Translations under genes and position numbers: made by a program
Source: Diplolepis rosae
Taxonomy: Eukaryota > Arthropoda > Insecta > Hymenoptera > Diplolepididae
Direction: 5' to 3'
Length of the DNA stretch: 64,000 bases
Assembly (NCBI GenBank): GCA_030998225.1
Contig: JAPYXD010000250.1
Coordinates: 4,216,001 to 4,280,000, forward strand
Shown here: positions 29,839 to 64,000 of the stretch, piece after piece
Layout: each line of letters starts with the position of its first letter
Position numbering within the stretch: the first letter of the stretch is position 1
The notes under the pieces: model-generated
What the model was told of the DNA's origin: nothing
Databases searched by the model: none
The model's input: only the letters and a program-made list of their open reading frames with translations

Positions 29839-30252
29839 CATTTTATCGTAGTTCATTTTTATGAAACCTTCACTATTGCAATTCATAGTGTTTGGAAATA
29901 AATTTACAATATTATAATGTTTAATAATAAAGAAAATATTGGTGTAGGTATGGTAAAATTCCCTTAAATTCTCTGAAAATTCTCAAGTTGTCTTAAAATG
30001 ACGATCACAGTCACGAGAACGTGACCAGATTTTAAAAGTCCGAGAAATTTAGAGCTCTAGGACCCCATCTCGATTCGCCAAACCATAAATTCTCCGACGC
30101 GCGGTAAACTTCACGCTGTAAATTCTAAAAATTTTCAGGCGCGCATTGTGACTTACAAGAAAGGCATACGTTTATCAAAATGCAGATGATTGTCGGTAAT
30201 AAGTGCAGATATTCGTGATATAAAGTAACAGATGGAGCTACAGGTAAGTTTA
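29839..30252. other. Spacer before the gypsy element, no gene
   Basis: Slightly GC-richer patch (30,000-30,150) containing GACGCGCGGTAAAC and CAGGCGCGCATTGTG. No open frame and no recognised motif. Confidence 0.35.
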
Positions 30253-30514
30253 TGTAACACCCCAAATGGGTGTCGGTAAGAATGATTTCTTCACAGGAGA
30301 GTTCTCGACTGCCTTAAACGTAAAAACGCAAAAGGTAGGGAGTTAATAATAAATTTAATACTTCGGTTTAATTTCACTTTGAATTTACACACACATAAAA
30401 TTTATTTCCAAGATGTTTTAATTATTAAGATATAATTAATAAGCTGGAAGTCTTGGGTGCGGTTCGCGGGTGTAAAATTAAAAACTAAAACTTCTATCAA
30501 ATTTAAAAATGATA

Positions 30515-31271
30515 AAGGGTTTCCCAATAAGGGTGATATGTTTTGAAATTGAAAAAAAACACTGAATGTTCATTCGGAATTGATCGAAATCTTTTTTATT
30601 ATATTGGATATTCTATGCCATTTATGATTTAAACAATATATCGGCCAAATGTCCCCCGAGACTTGAGCCAAAAATGCGCCTCATCAGAAAAGATGATTTT
30701 TTGATGAAAATTGGGATCATTTTCAATTGATTCCAGAGCCCAATCCGCGAACTCCCGACGCAAACGATGGTCATTAGGCTTCAGTTCTTGGGCCAGAATC
30801 ATCTTATAGGGATGCAGGCCAAGATCCAATCGCAAAATACGCCAGGTAGTCATCCTAGACAGGCCCAATTCCTGAGATCGGCGTGGCACGGACAATTCAC
30901 GGTTTTCCTCGATACTGGCCTGTACGGCGGCTATATTCTGTGTAGAACGTGCGGTACGCATACGATTTTTAGGCTTAGTATCCAATAGAGTAAATTCACT
31001 CTCCAACTTATCGATTATTCGACGAATTGAGAGCGCGGATGGAGCAGAATGACGACCATATTTTGCACGATATGCTCTTTGAACACCGACTAAACTTCTC
31101 GAATTTTGATAAAATAATTGGACAATTTCCAAACGTTGTGGAAGCGTGAAACTACTCATGATTAAATGGCAAACCTTACTGATGACAACTGACAGCAGAC
31201 GTCAAAAATTTCAGTTCAAATGAGCCCGATAGGGACATTCAAAATCATATCACCCCTATTGGGAAACCCTG
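30515..31271 (-). mobile_element. 757-bp internally deleted Tc1-like element
   Basis: Left end AAGGGTTTCCCAATA and right end (complement) CAGGGTTTCCCAATA are inverted, with TA duplicated at 30513-30514 and 31272-31273. The empty site is seen in the other LTR at about 39,022. It contains one open frame (30629-31159). A nearly identical copy is at 58053-58795. It inserted after the retrotransposon did. Confidence 0.92.
30629..31159 (-). CDS. Truncated Tc1-like transposase, N-terminal 176 residues
   Basis: Opens MSSFTLPQRLEIVQLFYQ, a helix-turn-helix start. A paired second DNA-binding region lies at about residues 25-110 (with RRSQELGLSRMTTWRILR as the second recognition helix). The catalytic core begins with IIFSDEAHFWL near residues 154-164, which holds the first aspartate. 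The frame then leaves the family: after KSRG it reads TFGRYIV and stops, whereas the next frame over the same bases reads GGHLADILFKS, which looks like the normal C-terminus. A deletion therefore removed the middle of the gene and shifted frame. The product would bind DNA but could not cut. The start codon lies 36 bp from a GACTGACATTTTTGACGTC-like leader shared by both copies. It may be a repressor-like or simply a passive frame. Confidence 0.75.
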   Translation of the reverse strand: MSSFTLPQRLEIVQLFYQNSRSLVGVQRAYRAKYGRHSAPSALSIRRIIDKLESEFTLLDTKPKNRMRTARSTQNIAAVQASIEENRELSVPRRSQELGLSRMTTWRILRLDLGLHPYKMILAQELKPNDHRLRREFADWALESIENDPNFHQKIIFSDEAHFWLKSRGTFGRYIV

Positions 31272-31632
31272 TACAAGGAAAATCGAGAGAGAAAAGCGAG
31301 CGACTGTCTCGAAAGAGTCAAAAATCAATCTGAATCTCCAGCCGAGAAACGATTATAAAAATCCGGCCCCTCTGCATATACTTTCTTGGTTTCGAGAAAC
31401 GCCCCTGCCCCAATTGCAGCCAGTAAAAACAGGGTTTACTTCCACTTTTCCTGAGTTTTCCCTCCACCAAGAAAATCTGTAAAAACATTGAGAGCCTCCT
31501 TAGTCCCGTCCGCTTGGACATTTATGACCTTTGCGATGGCTCCCAGGTCAAGTCAAAGGGTCCTCGAGAAACTAGCCTGCGCCTTGTTGCCTTGTTGCTT
31601 TCCTAATATGAGACATCGTGAGTGAAAATAAG

Positions 31633-32743
31633 CTACGAATCTGGATGTATGTATGCCTTTTCCAATCGATTTGAGTGAACGGTCTTTTTCTCGTTGGGTT
31701 TAATTTGCAATTCGACATTCCGGTCGTCAAAAACTTGGGTTATCTGATATGGACCTTCATAGTAATCTGACAATTTATTGGCCATATCGCCTTTCTGCAG
31801 TCGAACGTATTCGCCTATCCTGAAAGTACGGGGATTCAATTTTTTATCGTAATTTCTTTTATACCTTTGTTTGGCTTCATTAATATTTGTAATAGCTTTT
31901 GCTTGGGTTTCGCTTAACTTATGAAGAAGATCGTCCATATGCTCGATGAAGGTACCCGGAACACAATCTTCTTCGAATTCTGAGGGTATTCTAGCCTTTT
32001 TGCCGAAAATGAGCTCGTGAGGCGTAAATCTGATAGCTTCGTGAACAGAAGAATTATAAGAGAACATCGCGAACCTCAACCACTTGTCCCAATCCGTTGT
32101 ATTCATAAAGTGACGCAGGTACTCCACGAGGACACTGTGGCTGCGTTCCAATGCGCCTAAAGATTGAGGGTGATATGCAGTAGATTTAAACTGACGAATT
32201 TTAAATATTTTACAGAATGGACTGAATAGCTGACTCATAAAATTACTGCCCTGGTCAGTCTGAATTGATCTTGGACAACCGAACCTAGTTATAAAATTTT
32301 CTGCTAGAGCCATAGCAACTGTAATTGCTTCTTGGTCTGGAATAGGGATTGCTTCCGAGTATTTAGTTAGGCAATCCTGCAATGTTAATATATATATTTC
32401 AGTCTGTGGTGCTGGGGAGTGGACCCACAAGATCCATTTGTACTTTGTCGAAAGCTTCTTTTGGCGTATCGGTTATTTTCATGGGCTGTCTGGTCTTTAC
32501 TCGCACGATTTTTTTTTTCTGACTACTTTCGCAATATTTTACGAAATTTTCTATATCGCTCCTCATTCTAGGCCAACAAAATCTTTCACGGATTCGATTT
32601 AGAGTTTTATTAACACCTCTATGTCCTCCGATTACTGAATTATGAGCTTCGCGTATAATATTTTCTCGTTCTGATTCTAAGGGGACTTTTATTTCACCGG
32701 TGCAAACGTGAATCGTAATCCCCGTGTCTAAATATTTCTGCAA
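31633..32743 (-). pseudogene. pol: Gypsy integrase region of pol
   Basis: Two overlapping frames. 32743-32399 carries the zinc-binding part (EAHNSVIGGHRGVNKTLNRI, then CWPRMRSDIENFVKYC, with an HH-CC arrangement) and the first catalytic aspartate in QMDLVGPLP. A frame change near 32,410-32,430 leads to 32430-31633: TKYSEAIPIPDQEA, IQTDQGSNF (second aspartate), GALERSHSV (glutamate), and a C-terminal part ending PYQITQVFDDRNVELQI and VHSNRLEKAY. It would insert the cDNA copy into the chromosome. No chromodomain is visible. The frame change makes this copy non-functional unless the element tolerates it. Confidence 0.88.
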
Positions 32744-33944
32744 TTAAATCTTCTACCTCAAGCCATGTAATACCATCGAAACCATTACCATATCTCGACA
32801 TACTAACAGATTTTTCGTTTAAGGAAATCATTGACATTTTCAAAGCTTTCAAAATAGATTTTAAGTCATTTTTTACAATCCTGTCATCACATGATTCTTT
32901 AATTACTGCGTTAAAGATATATCTATTACCGTGTTGGAAGCTCAAAATTTGACCTACTTCAGGCTCCGCTTGCTGAAGCTCGTCTGGCCGAATAAAACCT
33001 TCACTACTTAGATCTCGACTTGTGATACTGTTAAACTTGCAGTCACGCGAAACGAAATGTAACAAATTGTCCCCTCTTGACACTAATTGATCCTTTTTGT
33101 AAATAATACAATCCCTATCAATAAGATAAACATGAGCAATATCGAGACATGCATTTGAATTATCCGAATCAAATTTAATACGGTTAGATTCAGGACAGAC
33201 CTTACTTGTAAATTTACGTTTTCCTGGACTGAGTCCGCCTAATTCTCCGATACTTACAGTCTCTTCCTCCAGGTTATTCATCGACACATGTGCCAGTGAA
33301 ATGCTGATACGAGGGTCCCTAACAGGCCAAATTTCTGTCTCTCGCTCGGCCATCAGCGAATTGACCATAACATCTACTTCTTTACCTCGCCTGGCGTCCA
33401 GTGAGTTTTTACTTTGAAGATTTTTGGTCACTAACTCCGACAAATAAGTACCTCCTCCCACACAGATTTTTCGGCGATTTTGAGTCGTGGAATTGCTACT
33501 GATTGTGGGGTTCCCTATCAAGCTTACAGAACTTACACTATCTAGTTCTGTCTCCGTTTCTTCCCATGGGGGTATGCAACACAGAGTGTGGTAGTCCCCG
33601 TTAGCCTGACGAGAGAGCGGGTTGTCAACCTCCCTAAAGGGTGATGACCTACTTTCGGACTCAACAGCTGATTCATAAAAATCGCTTCCTGAATCTGACT
33701 CAGAATCTGAGTCAGATTCAGGAAGCGATTGTCATTGTCGATAGAAATTTTCGATTTGTTTTCTGCATGTTTCAAGTCGGTCTGACATGAATCGTTTTGA
33801 ATAATTTCTTTTACTTCAGAATTCGTCAAAAAAATTCGACCAATCAATTCCTGATTCCATTGATTGAGATAGTCATCCTGATTATTTACCTTAACTACCT
33901 TTTCAACTGTCTCGCTATTACGCAAATTATCTATAGGGTTTCGT
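32700..33944 (-). pseudogene. Extra pol segment with a TARG1/OARD1-like macrodomain
   Basis: Lies between RNase H and integrase, where most gypsy elements have only a linker. The first part (about 33,925-33,735) is Asn/Gln/Glu-rich. An acidic tract SLPESDSDSESDSGSDF lies at about 33,730-33,680. The macrodomain is at about 33,104-32,724: a GD/HFVSRDC N-terminal block, GNRYIFNAVIKE (lysine at the catalytic-lysine position of TARG1), then MSRYGNGFDGITWLEVEDLI (aspartate at the catalytic-aspartate position). The glycine-rich substrate loop is poorly conserved. After a one-frame change near 32,740 the closing strand DTGITIHV continues into integrase. Members of this family remove ADP-ribose from acidic residues. 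Homology is from motif order and spacing, not a search. Confidence 0.72.
33681..33729. repeat. Perfect 49-nt palindrome inside pol
   Basis: Twenty-four bases (starting ATCGCTTCCTGAATC at 33681) are followed by one base and their exact reverse complement. On the minus strand it encodes the Ser/Asp/Glu-rich tract just upstream of the macrodomain, and it coincides with the place where the reading frame changes from the Asn-rich part to the acidic part. Confidence 0.9.
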
Positions 33945-36144
33945 GATAGTGAATCCGCGTTTGAGTTAATTCTTCCAGGTTTATATACTACGTTGTAATC
34001 ATATTCAGCCAGCCGCAGCTTCCAGCGAGCAAGTTTTGAAATGGATTCTTTATATTATGCAAGCACACGAGAGGCCTGTGATCAGTGACTAATGTAAAGC
34101 GTTGACCGTACAAATATGGTCGGAAATGCTCTACTCCAAAAATAATGGCAAGAAGTTCTTTTTCGGTCGTGGAATATCGCGTTTCGGGTGCATTTAAGGT
34201 ACGAGATGCGAAAGCGATTGGTAAGTCTTTACCAATTTCGCCCTGACTTAGCACTGCTCCGAGTGCATAGTCCGAAGCGTCAGTAGTAACGACAAATGCT
34301 TTTGTAAAATCAGGGTACTGAAGGATCGGTTCAGAAATAATTCTATCGCGTAAAGCTTCGAAGGCACTTTGTTGTGAATCACCCCACTGAAATTTCACGT
34401 CGAGTCGTGTTAAATAATTTAAGGGTTTAGCTATTTTCGCAAAATCGGTGATAAATTTACAATAATATCCTACGAGTCCAAGAAATTGTTTTATATTTTT
34501 CCTATTTTTGGGGATGGGGAAGTTCCTTACTGCTTCGATTTTGCTAGAATCTGGTTTCACACCATCCTAAGTTATTACGTGTCCAAGATAAGCAATTTCT
34601 TTTCATAAAAAGTTGCACTTATCAGGCTGTAATGTCAACCCAGCACTTTTCAATCTTCCCAGGAGCTTCCTCAACTTCCTTGAGTGCTCTTTCAAGGAGT
34701 TAGCATAGATGACAATGTCATCCATATAAACAAATAGCTTGACTCCTTGGAGGCCAGAGAGAACCTGATCCATCAGTCTCTGGAATGTAGGGGGTGCATT
34801 CTTCAATCCGAATGGCATACGTTTAAACTCGTAGTGACCATGAGGAGTGGAGAACGCAGTATTTGCTTTTGATTCGGGATCCATTGGAATCTGATGGAAT
34901 CCTGAAGCAAGATCGAGCGTAGTAAAATACTTCGCTCCTCCCAGTTGATCGAGAATATCGGTGATATTCGGCAAGGGGTAGGCATCACTTATCGTTTTTT
35001 CGTTAAGTGCTCGGTAGTCGATTACCATCCGCCACCGTTTTCTACCCTGCGAATCGGCCTTTTTGGGAACAATCCAGAATGGGGAATTGTAAGGTGAGTT
35101 GGAAGATTCGATAATGTCGTTTTTTAATAAGTCTCCCACTTGACTCTTTATTTCCTCCTTATGTATTTGTGGGTACCTATATATTTTAGCATGTGTTGGT
35201 ATTTCGTCAGTTGTTTTAATTTTATGAGCAGTAACAGAAGTGAACCCTAACCTGTCTCCGGGGATATGGAATTGATAAGGGTAAAGGTTAACGTCAGTTA
35301 AAAGGGAAGTTGTTTCGTCCTCTGACAAGTCTTGTAATTTTAAATTTTTAATAACGTCACAAAAGCGTTTGGTTTTCACAGTTTCTTTTGTTATATTATC
35401 GTCAGTTTCAGTACACGTCCGTATTTGAGGTTTAACAATTAAACAATCTTCCAATTCAACAGGTGGAAGCGTTAACTCAATCGGTTCATACGTTGAGTTA
35501 ATAGCAAAAATCGAGACAGTATTGTCTGATTTTGGAGTCACTAGGACTTCGCCTAAGTGCACATTTGGCCCCGTTTCGATTCTACGAATATACCCATTTT
35601 TTAATCTAGTTGATTTTATAGTTAAGGTCACTAATTTTTTTGTACGCGGGGGTAAATATATGGTATCATGGGTTTCGAATGGGAATGTTTCCCTGTTAAC
35701 GACTAATTTTCCATTTCTTGTATCATCAAATTGAAGAGTAGCACCTTGAGTGCTTAAAAATTCGATTCCTAGAATTCCTTTCTGAGCTATAGGAAAATCG
35801 GTTGGTACAATTTGAAACTTACATTCTATGCCCTTTAAGAAAAGTGTTATTTCGCCTTTTGTTTCAATTAAACCTTTGCCTATTCCCGTAAGATAGAAAA
35901 TTTTATTTTTATTCAATTCTAAATGTGGCCTTATCGCATTTTCTTTGAGCAAATTTAAATCAGACCCGGTATCGATTAGTATATTAACGTTGTTTGTTGA
36001 AAAGGCGCTATTTTCAAGTAATATTACCGGTAATTTAGAATTTTTATTTTTGTTTAAGGCGCAGAAGATTCGTCGGATGGCCGGTTTTGTAATTTTCTCG
36101 AGCTGTTCTCGTTCGAGGACTCGTGACCGCGCTTTTCCTTCCAA
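33945..36144 (-). pseudogene. pol: Gypsy protease, reverse transcriptase and RNase H region of pol
   Basis: The frame 36144-34603 contains the aspartic protease motif LIDTGSDLNLL, then reverse transcriptase with WRMVIDYRALNEKT, LDLASGFHQIPMD, PFGLKNAPPTFQR and the active-site YMDDIVIY. Two in-frame stops (about 34,600 and 34,570) separate it from the thumb/connection and RNase H in the same frame: FLGLVGYYCKFI, VVTTDASDYALGAVLSQ, STTEKELLAIIFGVEHF and LVTDHRPLVCL. A frame change near 34,045 leads to the closing VVYKPGRINSNADSLSR. The frame starts 91 bp before gag ends, in the -1 frame relative to gag, suggesting expression by -1 ribosomal frameshifting. It would copy RNA into DNA in the cytoplasmic particle. 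Dead in this copy. Confidence 0.92.
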
Positions 36145-37477
36145 TGAGAGCCCTGATTGCGGTTCCGAAAAAACTGCTCCTTTAAATGCTCAAATTTCGC
36201 GCGAAGAATACATTTTTCGGCGAGATGCCCCTTCATATCGCAAAAACCGCAAATCTTTACATTTTGGTTTCTCTGGACATTTTTCTCATTTTTGCTATCA
36301 CTAAAATGAGAGGGTTCAGAACGACATTGACGTTTGTAGTGTCCCTTTTTACCGCAATTGTAGCACCTAGCATCATTTTGTTTTGATGGTCCAGCTTCTT
36401 GCCCCTGTATGTGAGCTACCTGTTTTACATCAGTGTAAAAACGACCTACTGTCGGGGCGGTTATGCTGGAATTAGGTGAATGGACGCGATGGAGCTGTTT
36501 TAAATGTGATACTTCGCTTTCCACCAGTGTGGCTATACTTATTGCATGCTGAAGGCTAATAGGGTTCCTAGAGGACACGCGCGATTCGATCTCAGGATTC
36601 AACCCTCGAATAAAACAAGATGTACCATTCCTATTTGCACCGAGGCGCATTCCGGCGGCAGCTTCGACTGGGAAACTTTGATCGATTGTCTCGATAGTTT
36701 TACGAAGAATTTCGCTGACTCTTATTCCATACTGCAAAACAGATTCTGAGTTTCTCTGAATGACACTGGACATGTCAGCCTGCAGCTGACTCAAATCTCA
36801 GTGAGGACTGAAAGCAAGGCGTAAAATATCTAGAAGTTCTCCTAAATTTTCAGGCTCATTGGTGTTTTGCAAATAAGCATTTGCATCACCTTTCACACGA
36901 GTCCTGATGAGCTTAGTTAAGAAGGGTCTATCTCCAGGATGTACTGATTGTTCAGCAAATTTAGAATCACGAATAAAGGTAGCTACCGGTGGAGTGTTGC
37001 CGTCAAAATCGGGACCATTTCAGCTGCAATTTTAATACTAAAATATCGTTTATTTGGAGGGGAAAACATCACTCCAGGCGACTGAGATGAGACAGTAGAA
37101 AGTGGGTCAGTGCGGACATGAGAAACTGCGTCAATTGGTCTCAAATTTGAAGTTATATTTTCACCATGGCTATTCCCTGGAAAGAGAAAATATCGACACT
37201 GTTCTCCAGGTGCTGAGGAGTCATTGGTAACTAAATTGGGGAAATCTGGTGCAGGTACCAGGTAAGCGATTCGCGAATTTTGCGGGATGATAGTCATTTG
37301 GCTGAATTCGAGTCTAGCCGCCTGAGAAGCGTTGCTACTTGTGGACGCTTGATTTACGGAGATAGAGGCTACAGCATTCTGATCACGTGCCACATTTGAA
37401 CTAGGGATTTCCCTACTATTTTCCACTTTGAATAAAAAACAAAATAAATAATAATAATAATATACAAAAATCACCAA
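36054..37477 (-). pseudogene. gag: Gypsy gag with two zinc knuckles
   Basis: The upstream frame (37477-36983) is Ser/Asn-rich and ends with a frame change near 37,013. The next frame continues with FIRDSKFAEQSVHPGDRPF and a capsid-like helical region, hits a TGA stop at 36800-36798, then continues to 36054. The last part has two CCHC knuckles, CYNCGKKGHYKRQC and CGFCDMKGHLAEKC, which bind RNA in the particle. It ends in a basic/serine-rich tail overlapping pol. The stop and frame change make it non-functional. The first codons are uncertain. Confidence 0.85.
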
Positions 37478-38757: not shown

Positions 38758-38761
38758 ATTT

Positions 38762-39333
38762 TGTAATACTCCAAATGGGTGTGGGTAAGAATGATTTCTT
38801 CAAAGGAGAGTTCTCGACTGCCTTAAACGTAAAAACGCAAAAGGTAGGGAGTTAATAATAAATTTAATACTTCGGTTTAATTTCACTTTGAATTTACACA
38901 CACATAAAATTTATTTCCAAGATGTTTTAATTATTAAGATATAATTAATAAGCTGGAAGTCTTGGGTGCGGTTCGCGGGTGTAAAGTTAAAAACTAAAAC
39001 TGCTATCAAATTTAAAAATGATACAAGGAAAATCGAGAGAGAAAAGCGAGCGACTGTCTCGAAAAAGTCAAAAATCAATCTGAATCTCCAGCCGAGAAAC
39101 GATGATAAAAATTCGGCCCCTCTGCATATAGTTTCTTGGTTTCGAGAAACGCCCCTGCCCCAATTGCAGCCAGTAAAAACAGGGTTTACTTCCACTTTTC
39201 CTGAGTTTTCCCTCCACCAAGAAAATCTGTAAAAACATTAAGAGCCTCCTTAGTACCGTCCGCTTGGACATTTATGACCTTTGCGATGGCTCCCAGGTCA
39301 AGTCAAAGGGTCCTCGAGAAACTAGCCTGCGCC
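38762..39333 (-). repeat. 5' LTR of the gypsy element
   Basis: About 572 bp, matching the interrupted left LTR with about a dozen substitutions (for example TGTAATACTCC here against TGTAACACCCC there). Runs from TGTAA (internal edge) to CTGCGCC (outer edge) on the plus strand. It should hold the promoter of the element, but I could not fix a TATA box. Confidence 0.9.
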
Positions 39334-40832: not shown

Positions 40833-43054
40833 TCAATATTCATCAGATTGATTAGAATCTTTTTTTTTCAAAGAATAATATATGTGAACTAATTTCTTCG
40901 ATCTTTCGGGATTTAATCTATTTCTAATCGAATTATGTACGTAAGACCAATTAGAAAACAGTCTTTCTAACTGTGCTGTTGAAGCGGGGATTTTTAAACG
41001 TCTCTGTGCAAGTTGAGACAAGCGCGGGTATTTATTTTCTGCAAATGACCAGAATGTCACTGGAGACTCGATGTTTTTCGTGAACAGCACTCTGAAAAAT
41101 CCTTTTTTATTCTTGTACTCTTCTACTTCATTTAAACCGGAAGCGTCCAAATTTTCTAACAAAAAATTTTCAACATCGTCCATCTCTTTGAAATTTACCT
41201 TCTGTCCATGACATCTCGGATGCAGATAATTTGCAACGAGTACGTATATGTTTAAAGCTTTTTTTCGCCTATAGTTAAAAAAGTCTTCAAATTCTTCATG
41301 CCCTTCGGGAACAACTAATTGAAGCCATTCTTCTGAAGCATCTGCTATACTGAAATGTGTTGACTGGCATTTATTTATGAGCACGCAAACTGGATCAAAA
41401 ACGTTAATGCAAGATCGCACTCGAACTTCCAACTCTTCATCAAAAAGAAGCATTTTAACTTCTTGCTTCACTTTGAATTGTCCTTCAGCAATAATGGTTC
41501 GCATAGGATTTAAATTGAGTATAAAATTTACAAAATGATCTCGATAAGTACACCACCTTGTGTCACCCACTAAAACAATTTTAACGCCTCCTTGTTTCAA
41601 AATTTCTTTTTTTAGGTCAGGATGCTTGAAATTGTTAAGAATTGTAGTAACATATTTTGCTATATCTAAGTTAACAATGTCTTTAGCAAGCAAGTTTCCG
41701 CTGTGATTATTACAAGTAAGATGCCATGCTTCTATATCTTTACCCATTCGAACCATTGGAGAAGCATTGTCAGATACTACCGCATAAATTTTTGTGTTAT
41801 ACATTTCTTTTGCCAGAACCATGTCCTCTTCAAAAACTTTAGTTAAATTTTCAGCGTTTTCACTCTGTCTCGTAAAGTCCCAGGATTCAAGAAAATATGT
41901 TTGATTTGGTGCATTGTGCAACATGTATGCAACATTTTTAGTATTAGCAGAAGAGTTTTTCCAGCCATCAATGAGTAAGACCGATTCTTTATCAATTGCG
42001 TTTCCACATGCCGAATTTTTCTCATAAAATTTGTCCAGCAAAGTCGTAGAAAGTGTTTTTCTCGTTGGGGGTTTATACCCCGGTCTCAGTTTCTTTAGGA
42101 AACTTCTAAAAGTTACCGATTCTACAGCACTATGAGCTATATTGCAACCAGCGAAAAATTCTGTTAGGGCGATGTTTATTTCTTCATTTTCCTTTGTGGA
42201 AACGGAGTCAAAAAATCTAGACTTATGTTGAGAATTAACCTTGCTAAGACAACTTTTTTTTCGATGACGAAAAGCAGACATGTTTTTTACAGAATTTACG
42301 TCAGGGATTTGGTTTGATTCCTATAGTTTGAAATACAACAGAAAATTAAATTTTTTCACAAGAAAAATGATTTTCAAATTACGTTAACATCATTAATTAT
42401 TTTCACTTACATATTCTTCTACGTAGAAGTTTGGTAACAGAAAATTATTATCCATTATTGCTTCATTTTCTACAACAGTGGTTTTAGACGTGTAGTCTGT
42501 ATTCGACGACGTGCTACAACTTTCCATCATCTCGTGCTCTTCAGCTTCTTTTATAGCTTCTTTAGCGTTTGGCGACATTTCGGTACTTTCACCAAAGTTT
42601 ATATTATTTGACGCGATTTCATCGTTGTTAGCGGCTTTTGACGGCAGCTTGCAAATATTTCTATATAAAAGTTTTATTTCCATTAACATTTTCTACTCTA
42701 TTCTATAAATTTATTGATACCTATTACAATTTACTTCAGTATTTCATTAAAACTTTCAATATAGAACCTCCTGAAACATCCTATATAGAAACCTTTAGAA
42801 GGACCTGCTTGGTGACACATATAGAATTTATTCAGGTGCCCAGTAGTTTTATCTAATATTCTAAACAAATACATATTAAAAAATAACCTGTGAGCTTTTA
42901 GTCTAGCTACAGCAGTGTTTGCAAGAATTTTCCTGCAAACCAAGCAACGTGCTACACTCTTTTTAGTATTTTCATTCTTTTCTTTTTTATAACCAGCTTC
43001 TCGCCAAAGATTATGATTTGGTCCACCAGCCCTACTCATTTTTACCCTAGACAT
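40833..43054 (-). CDS. hAT transposase, three exons, apparently intact
   Basis: Predicted exons 43054-42888, 42660-42411 and 42320-40833 have GT-AG borders and matching phase (167+250+1488 bp), giving 634 residues with no stop. Exon 1 starts MSRVKMSRAGGPNHNLWRE and, across the first junction, forms a BED zinc finger: CLVC, then H-R-N-I-C, whose last Cys is supplied by exon 2. Exon 2 is acidic and Ser-rich. Exon 3 has the catalytic core: DGWKNSSANTKN, AVVSDNASPMVRMG and HLTCNNHSGNLLAKDIV. It ends with the hAT dimerisation region WSFAENKYPRLSQLAQRRL to SNWSYVHNSIRNRLNPERS. It should bind the element's ends and cut them. The canonical splice sites and open frame suggest this copy is recent. Confidence 0.85.
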
Positions 43055-45244: not shown

Positions 45245-45720
45245 TGTGACATTAACGCCAAGTAATAAATTTCATCGTAACGTGACTCATCAGGAAAGGA
45301 AACTCATTCGACTTTAAACACCAAAATATGGAAAAGATCGTACACCTTGTTTTTACTTCCACAGTAGTTGACCTTTTCCTTAGAATCGAATAACAGATAA
45401 AATAGACTTGATATATTTGACTATGACACTAATGCCAGGTAATATATTTCATCGAAGCATAAGTGATCAGAGAAGGCAACTCATCCGATCTTAAATACCA
45501 AATATGGAAAAGATGATACACCTTGTTTTTACTCCCACAGAAGTTGACCTTTTCGTTAGAATCGAATAACAGATAAAATAGAATGCGACATTAGTGCTAG
45601 GTAATAAATTTCATTGGAGCACGAGTCATCAAAAAAGGCAACTCATCCGATCTTAATACCAAATATGGAAAAGGTGGTACACCTTGTTTTTTACTCCCAC
45701 CATAGGTGACCTTTCAAAGT
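45245..45720. repeat. Three ~165-bp repeats in the LTR upstream region
   Basis: The phrase TACACCTTGTTTTTACT with AATATGGAAAAGAT before it recurs at about 45,340, 45,515 and 45,680. The units are 80-90% alike by eye. They lie just upstream of the TATA box, as enhancer repeats do in the U3 part of LTRs. Confidence 0.8.
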
Positions 45721-45721
45721 T

Positions 45722-45729
45722 CTATAAAA
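45722..45729 (+). promoter_or_regulatory. TATA box of the solo LTR
   Basis: CTATAAAAA stands about 28 bp before CAGTTCAGTCAC at 45751, which resembles an insect initiator (TCAGT). Likely the LTR transcription start. Confidence 0.65.
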
Positions 45730-45752
45730 AGCGAAAGTTCCAATAGAGATCA

Positions 45753-46040
45753 GTTCAGTCACTTAGTCGACATCCAATTTCTACAATGTAACCAATGTGA
45801 GTTCAGTCACTTAGTCGACATCCAATTTCTACAATGTAACCAATGTGAGTTCAGTCACTTAGTCGACATCCAATTTCTACAATGTAACCAGCGCGAGTTC
45901 AGTCACTTAGTCGACATCCAATTTCTACAATGTAACCAATGTGAGTTCAGTCACTTAGTCGACATCCAATTTCTACAATGTAACCAACGTGAGTTCAGTC
46001 ACTTAGTCGACATCCAATTTTCACAATGTAACCAACGCGA
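45753..46040 (+). repeat. 48-bp tandem repeat, six units
   Basis: The unit starts GTTCAGTCACTTAGTCGACA and is 48 bp long (a multiple of three), so it gives a 127-codon frame (45706-46089) of 16-residue repeats (HLVDIQFLQCNQ). Position just after the LTR start makes it transcribed; I see no evidence that it is translated. Confidence 0.88.
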
Positions 46041-48244
46041 GTCCAGTCCAGTACCATCATCTCTACACGGCGAGTTCAGTTCAGTCTAGTCCAGTTTCAT
46101 TATCTCTACGCTACGAGTTCAGTCCAGCCTCATCAGATTTTACAGCTACTCAGACGAATTCTTACTCGACGCTGAGTTCAACGACATTAGAAAGTGAAGG
46201 GGAATCACCTTCCAAAATTCTCTCTAAAACTAGGATCAAGAATCGACTAGACCAACCGTCTCAACTACGAATTTCCCATCAAACAAGTACTATCTCATAG
46301 ATTACGACGAAGACTCAACTGACCACCTTCGCTCCACTGGACTCAATAAATCATCAGGCAATTTTCACTCGGGGTAATCACAAAGGTACATCTAAATTTC
46401 AATTAGATTTCCAATTCCATGATGCTTATTCGTTTCTCAATTTGATTGTCAATAAACATACTTATTATCGATAACCATTCTCAATCACTGACTTCTTCTC
46501 ATCCCTTAGAGAGGATCCTTTTCGATCCTTACATAAAACGAGGAATCTTTTAAGAAGAGAAATGTTACGTTCCTGACGTAACAAAACTCAGAATGTAGAT
46601 TTTAAATTTCTTATGTCATATGTTCATATCTTCTTAATGGAAAATACTTTGCACATAATTCTCTGCTTCGATATTTTTTAAATGTACGCAAATATTTAAG
46701 AAATTCATAAGCATTTCACCTTTTTATGAAAATTTAAAATTTCCAAGTAACACTTTGTTTGATAATGCTAAAAATTTGTCAATAATTGATCTATTGTATT
46801 GTAAGTTTAAACATAGGACGACTTAAAATTTCACAATGACATTATTTTTCAAGTACTTAAACCTTTCTTTAATTTTGAGAATTCTTCCCGAGGTTTATTT
46901 CAGGTGAGTGACATTTTCTTTTTTTAATGAAAAATTTTATATCTTTAAATTTGGCTCATCTTGTATCATTGTAAAAAGATTTTAAAACTTCAAAAAAATT
47001 TGTCAGTTTGATTCAAAGTCAATAAATATTCAATGTTTGAAATTGAAATATTAAGTGAAAGATTTTCAAGCTCTGGGAATCAAGTACTTTAATAACACAA
47101 TTTTTCTTCTCTGTAAAGAATCTATATTTTCAAATTAAAAGTCTCCGCATAGGTCTTTGTTTTGAAGAAAAATTAATTTGATTTAAACAAATATTTATTT
47201 GGTTTAAGGATATTTTGTTTGAATCAAGCAAATTTTATTTCATTTAAACAATTCATTTCTTTAAATCAAAGAAAGTCATTCAAACAATCATTTTCTTTGA
47301 TTCAATCAAATCTTTTTTGAGTGCATAATAACTAATTTTGTTTTGAAAGAAAAAATTTTGTCATCGTTCAATGAACGTTCAAAACTGTAATCACATGTAT
47401 TTTCTGAATCAAGTGGATGATTTATAAAACTCAAAAATGTTTTAATTAACATCTTCATATAAAACTAAGAATTTATTGAATTTGTATTTCATTGAAAAAT
47501 TCTTTTTTTAGTGTTCAAATCTTCCTACGAATCCACAATAATAGGAAAATTAAAAATGACAAAGTATTTCATTTAAAAGATCACAATTGTTTTCTTGATA
47601 TTTGGAAAAACATTCATAAGATCTTGTGAAGTAGTAACAAGATTTAAACATATTCCGAAAAAAAATGTGCATGTAAAATTTGATATCGGTAAATATTTAC
47701 ATGTTCATATGAAGATATCAATAAACACATATTTTAGCTTTTTAATTTATTCACTTCTATTAGAAAATTTTTTCTTTTTGTAGAGCATTTCATTTTTTGA
47801 ATGAAAAGTCTGCTCTTAGGCTACAAAAATGTTAGATGAAAATATTTTTAACATAAAACTGAGAATGTAAATTTTAAACTTGAATTTTATGTTTATCTTT
47901 TCTTAAAAGAATATATCTTTCTTACTGAAAATTTTTTAAATGTACAAAATTGATTCGAAGTATGGAAATTTAAATAGAAAAATATATATTGATTTAAATT
48001 TAGAACATTTATTGCCATCAAATTTTACTGAAAGTTTATTTTTGAAATGTTTAAATCCTTGTAAAATTTTAGACGATCTTTTAAATGTTCATTTTAGGCA
48101 GATTTTTCCAAAATATCGGAAAAAAGTGTTATTTCTTAAAAAACATATTTCGTAAATTTCAAATTGGCGTCTGCTTCGCACTATTTTTGCACGGAGTCGA
48201 AAGAAATACAATTCTCAATTTCGACTCGATAACCGAAAGCTCGT

Positions 48245-53446: not shown

Positions 53447-54161
53447 TTAGTAAAGATTACGGCGAGTTGCTAATTGAGTCGCTAATCGATCTCGTCTTAA
53501 AATTCCTGCTTCATCATCGTGGATGTCCTCGACAAATAGTCTGTTTGCCTCGTCCACGTCCTCGTTTCTCGGTTCTATCCCTTCTGCAATGTACTCTTCT
53601 AATTTGTTATCGTTATAATTGAGGCAAATATTGTGAAGCACGCATGCGGCGATGATTGCCAATGGTATCAAGTCCAGTCTGACCATGTACAAATACTTCA
53701 GTCTTCTGAAACGCCCTTTTAGCAAGGCGAAAGCTCTTTTGATGCTGCTTCGATACTTAGAAAGAACTGAATTAAATCGAATTTGCATTTGCGTTAATCC
53801 ACCTCGGTTCATGTACGGTGTAATACACCAGTTTCATAATGGATAAGCTTTGTCGCCCAGTATGAATTCGTCATTCGGAAAATATTTCCGAGGATTATCG
53901 TGAATTAATTGAAAAATGTCAGAGGAGCGAAAAATCCTACTATCGTGAGCCGAACTAGGAAAGCCTGCGAAGCAGTCGATGAATTTCAACGATGGTATGC
54001 AAATAGCCTGCAGGGTTTCTGCGGTGAAAAGTTTGCGACAAACGTAAGATTGCGGATCCCTAGACGGAGCTGGAATCTGAACGTACATGCCGTCGATGCA
54101 TGCTATAGCGCCCGGTAGATCGTGGAAGGATAAATTGATTCTTTCGATCTCGTTCAAGGTA

Positions 54162-56071
54162 CCCGTGTAGAAATTGCCCTATCTTTCCTTATTTCAAGTT
54201 GGGTTCTAGTGGGGCCCGGACTAGAATTTCCTCATCTAGAAAAAACTGGTAGGGGCCCTGTTAGCACCCGATTAGTATTTCTAGTCCAGAAAAAACTGAT
54301 AGGGGCCCTGTCAGGTTCTAGTGAGGAATTCCTTGTTTCGCTTAAGTATGGAAAATCTATTTGTATCTGGCGGGGCCCCGACTAGAGAATCCCTATTTGT
54401 AATATTTGTGGTTAAGGTTAGGTCCATTAGATACAACATAACCTTTATTCTTTATTCTCATTAAAATTTGATCTTATCTGATAAAAATGGAGATTTTCTG
54501 AACACGGTCTTGGATAAAATCAATACTTAAGAGGAAGCAACAACATTTAAGAAAACTTTTTCATAATTTTAACTCGAATTCGCATGTAATTATAATAATC
54601 ATATGCGAGCACGTTTGTGTATGTGTGTGTATCTTATTGTGTCGAGGTAATAACAATAACGAAACATGTAGTTCAATTAACATGGGGTGAATAGTAAAAT
54701 CAATTGAAGCTTCCATAATAAACATAAGCGGTAGAAGTTACTACATAAGTGTAGTTAGAAAAACAAGCTATTGATAAGTAAATAAGTGTACTATTTTTTT
54801 AATAGTTTTTCGTTATGCGATAATTTTCTTGATTCAAAAGTTTCATCATATTTTTGGAATTGAAAAAACTCAAATTTTTTAGATTCTGAACATACGTTGA
54901 TTTTACTCTTAAAAACAAAAATTAAAGGAATCATAACGTGTATAAAGTATCACTAATATACAATAATAAAAATTAATACTTCTAAAATGTACATGAAGCT
55001 TTTTATTATGTAATGTTCTTTAATACAAAAATTTGACCTGTTTATTTCAAAAATATTTCATTTTATAGAAAATCGATTCAATAATTAAAAATTTTAATCA
55101 GAATCATAAATTGGCATAAAATTTAAAAATTCCCGGTTACACGGGGCCCATACACTTGTTACACGGCCCTGCAGTAGTTGCAGGTTATAAGCGCTATTTT
55201 CTTTCTTGTATTCCAAGCGTGCGCAGCCGAGAGGCTTAGTCGTTAGGTTAGTAATGCGTTAATTATAAGTAGAGAGGGTTCGAACCCGCAGCGTTAAGAA
55301 TAATTTTTAATACTACCCAAACGAGCGTTTGTGTAGTGTAGAGGGGAATGTGTGTTTGTAGGTAGGTTTGTATATAAAAATAGTAAATTAAAGACTGCTT
55401 GAAAGTAAATAATGTTTTGAAATGTACTAATAAGAATATTCATCGATTCAACTACTGCTCTTACTTGATTTACCCTTATGTTCCTGCGGTTCACTTAACT
55501 TCAAAAATTACACTGGGGCCTTTGTAAACTATGGAAAGTAAGTTAAAAAGTAGTCAAACTTACTGAGATTTTTTTTAGTGTACTTGTAATGAAAAAGTAC
55601 TGTCAATTTACTCAGAAAAAAATTTCCTAGCTTAAAAACAGATTTTTTACTGTGAAAACAGTAAACTTAACCTTCCAAGCGAATATCCCTCCATTGCCGT
55701 TAAAAATGTTAAATATTAGAGTCTTAACTCGAATTTCCCCTGTACTTTTTCTCTCAGTGTGGAAAATCGTTTTAATTTATTATTTTCTCAGTGAGATACC
55801 TGAACAAAATTGGTCACGCGACTCTGCTAATATATGCCCTTAAATTCAATGCGGAAGTCCAATAGGGCCCTAATGGTGTCCTTTTTTGTAGGTGGGGAAG
55901 TGTAAGGGCTGACCTCACTAAACCCCTACTAGAAAGTCTAGTAGGGCCCACCTCGATAAAAGCGTTTCGTTACCGACGGGGCCCTGACTAGTTTTCCACG
56001 CTAGATCTCGATTAGAGATGGGGCAAACTCGTCGGGGCCCCACTAGACCCCTATAAAAATTTCTACACGGG
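54162..56071. mobile_element. 1.9-kb TA-flanked insert with GGGGCCC-rich ends
   Basis: Both ends read CCCGTGTAGAAATT in inverted orientation and are flanked by TA (54160-54161 and 56072-56073). The end regions carry repeated CTAGTGGGGCCC and AGGGGCCCTG motifs; the interior is AT-rich. No transposase. It interrupts the Harbinger nuclease gene exactly between IIKWP and LNEIE. The interior has a tRNA-like patch at about 55,200. Confidence 0.88.
55205..55310 (+). other. tRNA-derived SINE-like segment
   Basis: GCAGCCGAGAGGCTTAGTCG (A-box-like) is followed about 50 bp later by GGGTTCGAACCCGCAGCG (a perfect B box with paired T-arm). The two are at tRNA-like spacing but the middle does not fold into an anticodon arm I can trust. 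A tRNA-derived SINE head is likely; the tail is unclear. Confidence 0.5.
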
Positions 56072-58052: not shown

Positions 58053-58795
58053 AAGGGTTTCCCAATAGGGGTGATATGATTTTGAATGTCCCTATCGGGC
58101 TCATTTGAACTGACATTTTTGACGTCTGCTGTCAGTTGTCATCAGTAAGGTTTGCCATTTAATCATGAGTAGTTTCACGCTTCCACAACGTTTGGAAATT
58201 GTCCAATTATTTTATCAAAATTTGAGAAGTTTTGTCGGTGTTCAAAGAGCATATCGTGCAAAATATGGTCGTCATTCTGCTCCATCCGCGCTCTCAATTC
58301 GTCGAATAATCGATAAGTTGGAGAGTGAATTTACTCTATTGGATACTAAGCCTAAAAATCGTATGCGTACCGCACGTTCTACACAGAATATAGCCGCCGT
58401 ACAGGTCAGTATCGAGGAAAACCGTGAATTGTCCGTGCCACGCCGATCTCAGGAATTGGGCCTGTCCAGGATGACTACCTGGCGTATTTTGCGATTGGAT
58501 CTTGGCCTGCATCCCTATAAGATGATTCTGGCCCAAGAACTGAAGCCTAATGACCATCGTTTGCGTCGGGAGTTCGCGGATTGGGCTCTGGAATCAATTG
58601 AAAATGATCCCAATTTTCATCAAAAAATCATCTTTTCTGATGAGGCGCATTTTTGGCTCAAGTCTCGGGGGACATTTGGCCGATATATTGATTAAATCAT
58701 AAATGGCATAGAATATCCAATATAATAAAAAAGATTTCTATCAATTCCGAATGAATATTCAGTGTTTTTTTTCAATTTCAAAACATATCACCCTT
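58053..58795 (+). mobile_element. Second copy of the deleted Tc1-like element, right end lost
   Basis: Starts AAGGGTTTCCCAATAGGGG after TA and is nearly identical to the element at 30515-31271 in reverse. Its right end stops after CATATCACCCTTA and runs into a (TA)n microsatellite, which also stands on its left side. The inverted end is thus truncated. Confidence 0.88.
58165..58695 (+). CDS. Truncated Tc1-like transposase, second copy
   Basis: Same 176-residue frame as at 30629-31159 with about five substitutions (for example NLRSFVG for NSRSLVG). It keeps the DNA-binding part and the IIFSDEAHF first-aspartate block and ends GTFGRYID after the same frame-shifting deletion. That two copies at distant places share the deletion shows the deleted form itself multiplied. 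Whether a protein is made is unknown. Confidence 0.75.
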   Translation: MSSFTLPQRLEIVQLFYQNLRSFVGVQRAYRAKYGRHSAPSALSIRRIIDKLESEFTLLDTKPKNRMRTARSTQNIAAVQVSIEENRELSVPRRSQELGLSRMTTWRILRLDLGLHPYKMILAQELKPNDHRLRREFADWALESIENDPNFHQKIIFSDEAHFWLKSRGTFGRYID

Positions 58796-62802: not shown

Positions 62803-64000
62803 GTGACGTCTTTTTGCGTCAGTGTCGTTAGTATGGGTCGGAATCCAAGCGTGTGGTGGACACATTTCAAGAAAATCGACAAGAATTCTGCGTCTTGCGT
62901 ATACTGCGACAAAGTGATAGTGACATCAGGAAACACCTCAAATTTAAAAGGTCATTTTGAAGCAGTTCATGGCAGCATAATAAAAACAGAAAGAGAAAAT
63001 AATAAACGGAAAAGCACGCAAATTCCTTTGAACCTTGATCAAAACAGATTAAACAGCGAACAGTAGTAGCAGTTCCATTCCTGGTTGCAGTTCCACTCCT
63101 GGTTGCGGTTCTGTGCGTAGCTTGTCAAGCAAGATACCATCAAGAACTAACGAAATAAGTATTAAAGATTGTTTTGAAAGCATGAAATCGTTTGAAGAAG
63201 GTGGCAGGAAGCATACCAAATTAACGAATAAGATACTGTTCATGATCTGTAAGGACTCTCAACCTGTGGCTACTGTAGAAAGAGAAGGATTTAAAGAACT
63301 TATGACACGTTGCTCCAAGTTACAAAATACCATGCCGAAAGACGTTTGGAAGTCGTTTAGATAAAAAATATGAAGAATTGTCAAAGGATTATAAAAGATT
63401 TTTAAAAACAGTCAAGGATATAACTCTAACAACTGATCTCTGGAGTGACACGTTAAATACTCGAAGTTTTCTAGGAATTACGGCTCACTTTCTTCAAGGA
63501 TCAGAAATCGTGAGCGGGGTAATAGGAGTTTATGACTTTCCAACAACTCACACATCCGCTCATCTAGAAGAAAAGCTACGAGATGTGTGTAACGAGTGGG
63601 AAATAAATCTGGATCAAATCAGCGCAATCGTTACAGACAATGCGTCTAATATAGTAAAAGCCGTGGAGGATTTTGTCGGTAAAGATCGCCATATAGGATG
63701 CTGTGCACACAAAATTAATTTGGTGGCCACAAATTCCATTAAAGGCATTAAAGACTTGGTAACTTTAATACAAAAAGTCAAAGCTATCGTCACGTCGTTC
63801 AAGCAATCTAATAATGCCAGTAATGACTTGAAAGCCGCTTCTGAGCTTAAACTTAAACAAGATGTAGACACAAGGTGGAAATCGACGTTATATATGTTAT
63901 TAAGGTTCATCCTCCTTCGTCCTATTGTTAGCGAAATTCTTTTCCATCAGCCTTCAGCACCTTCTATGATAACACCACAAGAATTCGAACAGTTATCAGA
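62803..64000 (+). pseudogene. hAT transposase (BED finger plus core), 5' part, frame broken
   Basis: The first frame has a BED zinc finger, VWWTHFKKIDKNSASCVYCD followed by NTSNLKGHFEAVH (Cys-x2-Cys, then His-x3-4-His). It stops at 63064; a shift of frame there continues in SSSIPGCSSTPGCGSVR and NKILFMICKDSQP to a second break at about 63,355. The third frame then runs on to the window end: LTTDLWSDTLNTRSFLGI, SAIVTDNASNIVKAV (catalytic aspartate region), IGCCAHKINLV and DVDTRWKSTLYML. The C-terminal dimerisation part would lie outside. The two breaks could be decay or unseen introns, but no good splice sites show. Confidence 0.82.

Follow-up and report, generated by a model that had tools for sequence, protein, structure and literature searches.

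A TARG1/OARD1-type macrodomain adjoining the integrase in the pol of a hymenopteran Ty3/gypsy retrotransposon

The element and its macrodomain

The analysed stretch of Diplolepis rosae DNA (contig JAPYXD010000250.1, positions 4,216,001 to 4,280,000; 64,000 nucleotides, hereafter the window) holds a retrotransposon flanked by long terminal repeats (LTRs). On the minus strand it reads CCHC Gag, protease-like domain and reverse transcriptase (RT), RNase H, linker, macrodomain, integrase zinc domain and integrase core. The RT, RNase H, H2C2 and rve integrase domains are ordered between the LTRs and accompanied by a CCHC Gag, which identifies a Ty3/gypsy element. The integrase ends at 31633 and the LTR starts near 31571, which leaves no space for an env gene, and the layout is not errantivirus-like. 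In the window copy, Pol is split over several frames. A preliminary description had placed a macrodomain of TARG1/OARD1 type between RNase H and integrase; the phmmer match to TARG1 (E=1.6e-9) and the order of the domains bear this out.

The macrodomain stretch lies within a single 345-aa open frame (33731-32694, minus strand), and frame repair is therefore unnecessary for 33119-32697. The interval first proposed, 32724 to 33104, is indeed macrodomain but falls short of the whole domain, which reaches from ~33119 to ~32702 and whose last strand, ITIHVCTGEI, sits in the next frame, in the open reading frame (ORF) 32743-32399. The frame change of the window copy thus lies inside the last helix and strand of the macrodomain. 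Three protein searches were made for comparison: the first returned a single protein, P0001, the second the OARD1 family (120 of 3326 listed), and the third, with ~121 integrase residues of P0001 alone, 59 pol proteins from 106 candidates, including P0122. In P0001 and P0122 the junction of macrodomain and integrase is uninterrupted and in one frame. An assembly chimera was considered and dropped, the junction being in frame in other records and loci.

Against PDB sequences, the window piece 32697-33200 (minus strand) matches human OARD1/TARG1 with phmmer E values up to 2.1e-9 over five distinct sequences, covering residues 34-161 or 41-161, and the next PDB sequence is reached only at E=0.26. 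The alignment has few gaps and 27% identity, beginning with YKKDQLVSRGDNLLHFVSRDC and ending with GFDGITWLEVEDLIAEIFRHGD. A profile made only from the 120 OARD1 proteins scores the window piece at 56.5 bits, against 3.7 for the top decoy among 1001 (1000 shuffles and the reversal; 742 received a score). Run over the 59 pols, the same hidden Markov model (HMM) detects 30 at E<1e-3; 649 shuffled or reversed pols give it no match at E<=1. In the opposite direction, a profile of 12 element macrodomains, from which both the window and its near-identical relative P0122 were excluded, retrieves TARG1 from the PDB at E=1.1e-23, with DarG next at 6.4e-4. When 39 element domains (again without the window) were compared with OARD1 by hhalign, the probability was 99.6 and E=4.8e-24 over 151 columns. 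The relation to OARD1 is full-length and stronger than that to other macro classes. Chance similarity to OARD1 was dropped as an explanation on the strength of the two decoy sets. The domain is, with near certainty, a TARG1/OARD1-type macrodomain of the ALC1-like class; judged by its sequence it is a diverged relative rather than a TARG1 orthologue, because the glycine-rich loop GAGIA is absent.

The Pfam Macro model PF01661, proposed at the outset as a check, gave no match to the window at E<=1, even though phmmer and the OARD1-only profile were positive. Taken on its own, that test would therefore have led to wrongly rejecting the macrodomain. The human OARD1 stretch itself matches PF01661 at E=2.3e-6; among 12 relatives of the window domain only one matched, at just E=0.095, and none of the 59 pols bears a precomputed Pfam Macro label. 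None of Pfam, NCBIfam and PHROGs gave the window piece a family-level match; a DarG model reached E=0.015 and 14.6 bits, far under its cut-off of 250. Scans of viral contig and genome contig collections yielded no confirmed relative. Searched through the D. rosae genome, PF01661 reports three places only, L001, L002 (C412) and L003 (C370), and these match neither the OARD1 profile nor the element profile. Annotation by PF01661 therefore misses the element copies, and the model is blind to a set of macrodomains.

An AlphaFold2 (AF2) model from 47 aligned rows reached a predicted local distance difference test (pLDDT) score of 80.1 and a predicted template modelling (pTM) score of 0.77, with TARG1 as the top match by both Foldseek and VIA; since 46 of the 47 rows are OARD1 proteins, this macro-fold result is not independent.

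Table 1 Features of the element in the window, with the evidence for each
Feature	Positions	Strand	Evidence
Macrodomain of OARD1/TARG1 type, from first strand through last helix, single open frame	32697..33119	-	phmmer to TARG1, OARD1-only HMM, likeness to P0122
Final macrodomain strand, next frame, continuing into integrase zinc domain	32699..32743	-	ORF 32743-32399
Codon of the Lys that aligns with catalytic Lys84 of TARG1	32898..32900	-	
Asp codon aligned with TARG1 Asp125, within GNGFD	32775..32777	-	
Low-complexity linker part, RNase H to macrodomain (N-terminal part of 345-aa ORF)	33120..33731	-	
RNase H region ORF	33988..34566	-	PF17919 E=5.6e-37, PF17917 E=3.9e-33
Protease-like and RT ORF	34603..36189	-	PF00078 E=6e-39; PF00077 weak, E=0.081, under cut-off
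Gag C-terminal part with CCHC knuckles	36054..36797	-	PF00098 E=4.8e-5
Integrase zinc-binding domain (H2C2) ORF	32399..32743	-	PF17921 E=2.4e-21
Integrase core and C-terminal region	31633..32472	-	PF00665 E=7.5e-11
5' LTR, approximate limits	38759..39321	-	repeats 98% and 97% to 3' copy
3' LTR, approximate limits, DNA transposon inside at ~30520-31271	30250..31571	-	repeats, sequence

The linker begins in another frame than the 345-aa ORF, is the least conserved part in close pol pairs, and has no Pfam match at E<=1 and no NCBIfam match over 33200-33731. The DNA transposon inside the 3' LTR (30520-31271) has inverted ends and an ORF with a DUF4817 helix-turn-helix, Tc/mariner-like by eye, and an almost identical ORF lies at 58123-58692 on the plus strand. 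Elsewhere in the window are hAT-like ORFs at 40836-42320 and 63306-63998, both with DUF659 (the second below the Pfam cut-off) and the former also with Dimer_Tnp_hAT; two ORFs at 53450-54178 that resemble a broken Harbinger-type transposase by eye; and a tandem repeat at 45706-46086 (48-bp unit, 6.2 copies) that reads as an open repetitive ORF.

Relatives, genomic copies and selection

A search for relatives had been suggested in the preliminary description, and long pol proteins with the domain do exist. The closest relative is P0122 (1436 aa), identical to the window at 142/145 macrodomain positions, 168/173 in RT, 172/179 in RNase H and 107/111 and 241/260 in two integrase pieces. In P0001, the macrodomain end (25/32 identical) stands in one frame with the integrase. 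The window macrodomain alone matches 32 of the 59 integrase-selected pols (phmmer, worst E=2.2e-4). A profile built from the window together with 24 pols detects the domain in 40 of the 59 at E<1e-7, 16 of these carriers being outside the training set, and nothing better than E=0.014 appears in the remaining 19 with the re-built profile. The relatives, which might have exposed the segment as a chance insertion, thus carry it in their majority. In every carrier where RNase H is also detected, the macrodomain lies between RNase H and integrase, and, measured by motif, carriers have 215-590 residues between the end of RNase H and the zinc domain, non-carriers 41-134 (the five pols having both motifs). 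Hosts are named for 9 of the 40 carriers, and all are Hymenoptera, belonging to six species of five genera (Anthophora retusa by genus); among the non-carriers two have a named host, a spider in one case and a fungus in the other.

The integrase tree unites 39 macrodomain rows (the window plus 38 pols) in a single clade with 100/100 support, and two changes of state are needed. The macrodomain tree sets 40 element rows apart from 14 OARD1 rows, also with 100/100, and several integrase subgroups recur in it, as would be expected of a domain inherited together with its integrase. A single gain followed by loss is the simplest reading, and the trees and alignments support the view that the macrodomain is a conserved part of pol across the whole clade. 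P0169, a pol lacking the domain, belongs to the main group on the RT tree and stands outside it on the integrase tree, where its branch is long; it is perhaps a recombinant. In a sister group (P0162, P0163 and P0167), the stretch before the integrase gives a weak match to the macrodomain C terminus (hhalign E=9e-4, probability 22, 32 columns), which may be a remnant or chance.

A search of the D. rosae assembly (757.7 Mb, 428 contigs) with the window macrodomain gave 1829 candidates, and each of the 150 that were scored matched, the weakest at E=8.5e-20. By hand count, 133 of these are stop-free within the match, and 14 of the first 30 lie without a stop in open frames of at least 1000 aa. Among 45 loci fetched (36 distinct sequences; some loci overlap), an H2C2-like motif follows the macrodomain in 44 and shares its frame in 42. 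Their Lys84 site is occupied by K (40) or R (5), and their Asp125 site by D (32), E (6), N (3), H (3) or a gap (1). Mammalian OARD1 (P0002) alone retrieves many of the same places, including the window's own. With that query no host OARD1 orthologue was recognised among 150 scored of 782 candidates, all at <=34% identity, a search that a multi-exon gene could escape; all 15 loci fetched give element macrodomain matches. The 120 OARD1 rows of 3326 listed include no insect sequence. The host may be without a conventional OARD1 gene, in which case the element copies would be its closest OARD1 relatives.

The ratio of nonsynonymous to synonymous change (dN/dS) was computed pairwise by the Nei-Gojobori method for 24 of the first 30 loci, sorted by eye into seven families. 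Excluded were the copy in the window, four near-duplicates and a single short match; stop codons were skipped, pairs with dS <0.01 or >3 were dropped, and the pairs are non-independent. Between families, macrodomain dN/dS is 0.11 for A-B (dS 0.90), 0.11 for A-C (dS 1.05) and 0.13 for B-C (dS 1.26), values that lie within the integrase range (16 loci; 0.05-0.18 between families, 0.08-0.53 within). Seven more between-family pairs give 0.09-0.29 at dS 2.0-2.9, close to saturation. Purifying selection on the macrodomain between families is clear, and the domain is very probably a functional part of the element. It is extremely improbable that the stretch is a host OARD1 fragment inserted by chance or a decaying, functionless passenger: the frame changes of the window copy and the related elements without the domain, some perhaps with remnants, would suit such an origin, but the 39-row integrase clade, the low ratios between close families and the long open frames holding the domain in the same genome speak against it.

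Active site and a possible role at integration

Active-site residues were counted over 40 element domains (window and 39 pols; the partial P0157 left out). The lysine and aspartate named in the preliminary description as the catalytic pair were correctly placed, aligning with Lys84 and Asp125 of TARG1, and the window copy keeps both. The Lys84 column, with K in 36 of 40, is the fifth most conserved, and the Trp129 column has W in 35. A site on strand 1 is Asp in 31 and Glu in 6; it may correspond to the adenine-binding Asp of macrodomains, with the alignment off by one column. The glycine-rich loop had been described as degraded. It is indeed absent, but not through decay of this copy: of the 39 aligned rows that have residues at this place, the window included, not one shows GAGIA (P0165 is gapped), and its absence is therefore a feature of the clade. 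By these alignments, the loop has been replaced clade-wide, with sequences such as TTETG and TTPVS in its stead.

TARG1 chemistry is reported to use the Lys84/Asp125 dyad, and in a published DarT rescue assay in E. coli BL21 wild-type TARG1 rescues the cells, unlike the K84A mutant. DarG reportedly retains only the dyad lysine and SCO6735 neither residue, with both being hydrolases, and variation at Asp125 therefore does not exclude activity. We give roughly an even chance that the domain binds or hydrolyses ADP-ribose, at least in the window's subclade, and a chance clearly below even that it hydrolyses it there.

From the Cys (column 150) of the last macrodomain strand to the first His of the zinc domain there are 20 residues in 37 of 39 pols and 19 and 21 in the others; from the end of RNase H to the lysine there are 142-518 (32 pols). 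Macrodomain and integrase therefore form one block that is loosely tethered to RNase H. Quite probably, the macrodomain is the N-terminal domain of the mature integrase. The fixed distance also bears on the two roles suggested at first, an action at integration or the countering of host restriction based on poly(ADP-ribose) polymerases (PARPs), and it favours the former over a free anti-PARP protein. A released protein opposing PARP-based restriction across the cell, like viral macrodomains, would find support in the fold it has in common with them (Foldseek matches of the model include alphavirus domains) and in the fast evolution of the domain compared with the rest of pol, but the nearly invariable spacer on the integrase side makes it quite improbable.

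Constant spacing would also suit a structural or nucleic-acid-binding scaffold before the integrase, its ligand no longer ADP-ribose and its lysine contacting DNA or protein; it would resemble the N-terminal extension that some retroviral integrases carry. The loss of the glycine loop fits a scaffold, as does the subclade P0144-P0159 (with the named bee and ant rows), in which Lys84 is kept in 8 of 10 aligned rows despite a shortened second loop; that the lysine stands exactly at the TARG1 catalytic position, that the window and a number of its relatives retain GNGxD and that Trp129 is so widely retained argue against it, and we consider it rather unlikely. Slightly less likely still is a reader without eraser activity, which would bind ADP-ribosylated chromatin and direct integration there, as chromatin-reader domains attached to other gypsy integrases may do. 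Such a role fits the constant distance to the integrase and the Asn found for Asp125 in 8 of 40 domains, compatible with binding minus full catalysis. Macrodomains include readers, the ALC1-like class of TARG1 reportedly having both readers and erasers, and chromatin-reader/Gypsy integrase fusions are reported in Ectocarpus. On the other side, a pure reader should presumably not need the lysine that most of the domains keep, and the glycine loop is lost.

The explanation that accounts best for the whole, and that we rate somewhat above even, is an acquired and selected integrase N-terminal macrodomain handling ADP-ribose at integration. On this reading, a Ty3/gypsy lineage acquired an OARD1/TARG1-type macrodomain directly before the integrase zinc domain, and the element clade has retained it by purifying selection, most likely as an integrase N-terminal domain that protease processing would leave attached to the integrase. 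In the window's subclade, the domain would remove or hold ADP-ribose on the integration complex, with cDNA ends, the integrase itself or chromatin proteins at the target as the likeliest sites, through lysine chemistry resembling that of TARG1 and an altered loop. TARG1 is reported to strip ADP-ribose from Asp/Glu of proteins and from the terminal phosphates of both DNA and RNA, and it is conceivable that both types of substrate occur on an integration complex. More tentatively, and at less than even likelihood, a hymenopteran Ty3/gypsy clade may carry an integrase N-terminal ADP-ribosyl hydrolase or reader for which de-ADP-ribosylation is a step of integration, performed without the glycine-rich loop. 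ADP-ribose signalling probably matters for the spread of the element.

Several observations weigh against this explanation. GAGIA is missing, and ADP-ribose binding may therefore be weak or gone; the second loop is shortened in P0144-P0159; Lys84 is not universal (R in 2, Q in 1 and A in 1 of 40), and the Asp125 column has D in only 23 of 40, with N in 8, E in 4 and others in 5. The TARG1 match of the good fold model is partly built in, OARD1 rows having been used, and a single-sequence model is poor (pLDDT 48.7). Within families, macrodomain dN/dS runs from 0.14 to 1.20, on few changes except in family F (0.14 at dS 0.53), and in distant pol pairs the macrodomain diverges more quickly than RT, RNase H and integrase (43% identity against 65% for integrase). 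Finally, two carriers, P0165 and P0174, are placed not in the main clade but in an adjacent group together with six non-carriers, and the RT tree is weaker, with four changes of state, one clade being not rejected by the approximately unbiased (AU) test (p=0.12).

Comparison with known systems

Human TARG1 (OARD1, C6orf130) is an ALC1-like ADP-ribosyl hydrolase, whereas the element domain resides in a retroelement pol and adjoins the integrase. Compared with human TARG1, its glycine-rich loop is replaced, the loop after the first strand is two residues shorter and Asp125 is variable across the clade. The macrodomain of DarG, a bacterial antitoxin and DNA ADP-ribosyl glycohydrolase, belongs to the same ALC1-like class. 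It reportedly keeps the dyad lysine alone, as do some elements, and the two are linked by the weak profile matches given above; however, DarG is a stand-alone antitoxin and is farther from the element domain than TARG1 is.

Accessory domains fixed in LTR retroelements reveal host processes that the elements must face. Here, an ADP-ribose-eraser fold is preserved by purifying selection beside the integrase of a many-copy lineage, and whether ADP-ribosylation restricts or guides integration becomes directly testable. A macrodomain in Ty3/gypsy pol or fused to integrase was not reported in titles or abstracts of open-licence PMC papers, among the matches listed (in several lists the top 15 to 25 titles), subscription papers and Repbase lying outside that scope.

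Three systems come close. Macro domain ORFs occur in epsilon-like endogenous retroviruses (ERVs) of ray-finned fish (Basta et al. 2009, as cited in PMC4977317), so that there, too, an LTR retroelement has taken up a macrodomain; these are described as additional ORFs in retroviruses, whereas here the domain lies within a Ty3/gypsy pol beside the integrase, with no env. The Gypsy Pol of Ectocarpus has acquired a NADAR domain, which is ADP-ribose-linked, across a whole lineage, and it resembles the present element as a Ty3/gypsy Pol gaining a domain of that kind (PMC12477816). Orchid Gypsy elements carry a plant-derived AlkB-type demethylase of N6-methyladenosine (m6A) with activity shown in vitro, likewise a modification eraser captured by a gypsy lineage but in a separate ORF and with other chemistry (PMC9289625). 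Together with the fish ERV macro domains and the algal NADAR, the element suggests that LTR elements have recruited ADP-ribose enzymes repeatedly. The fish ERV macro ORFs, the Ectocarpus NADAR and the orchid AlkB are all precedents for this kind of capture.
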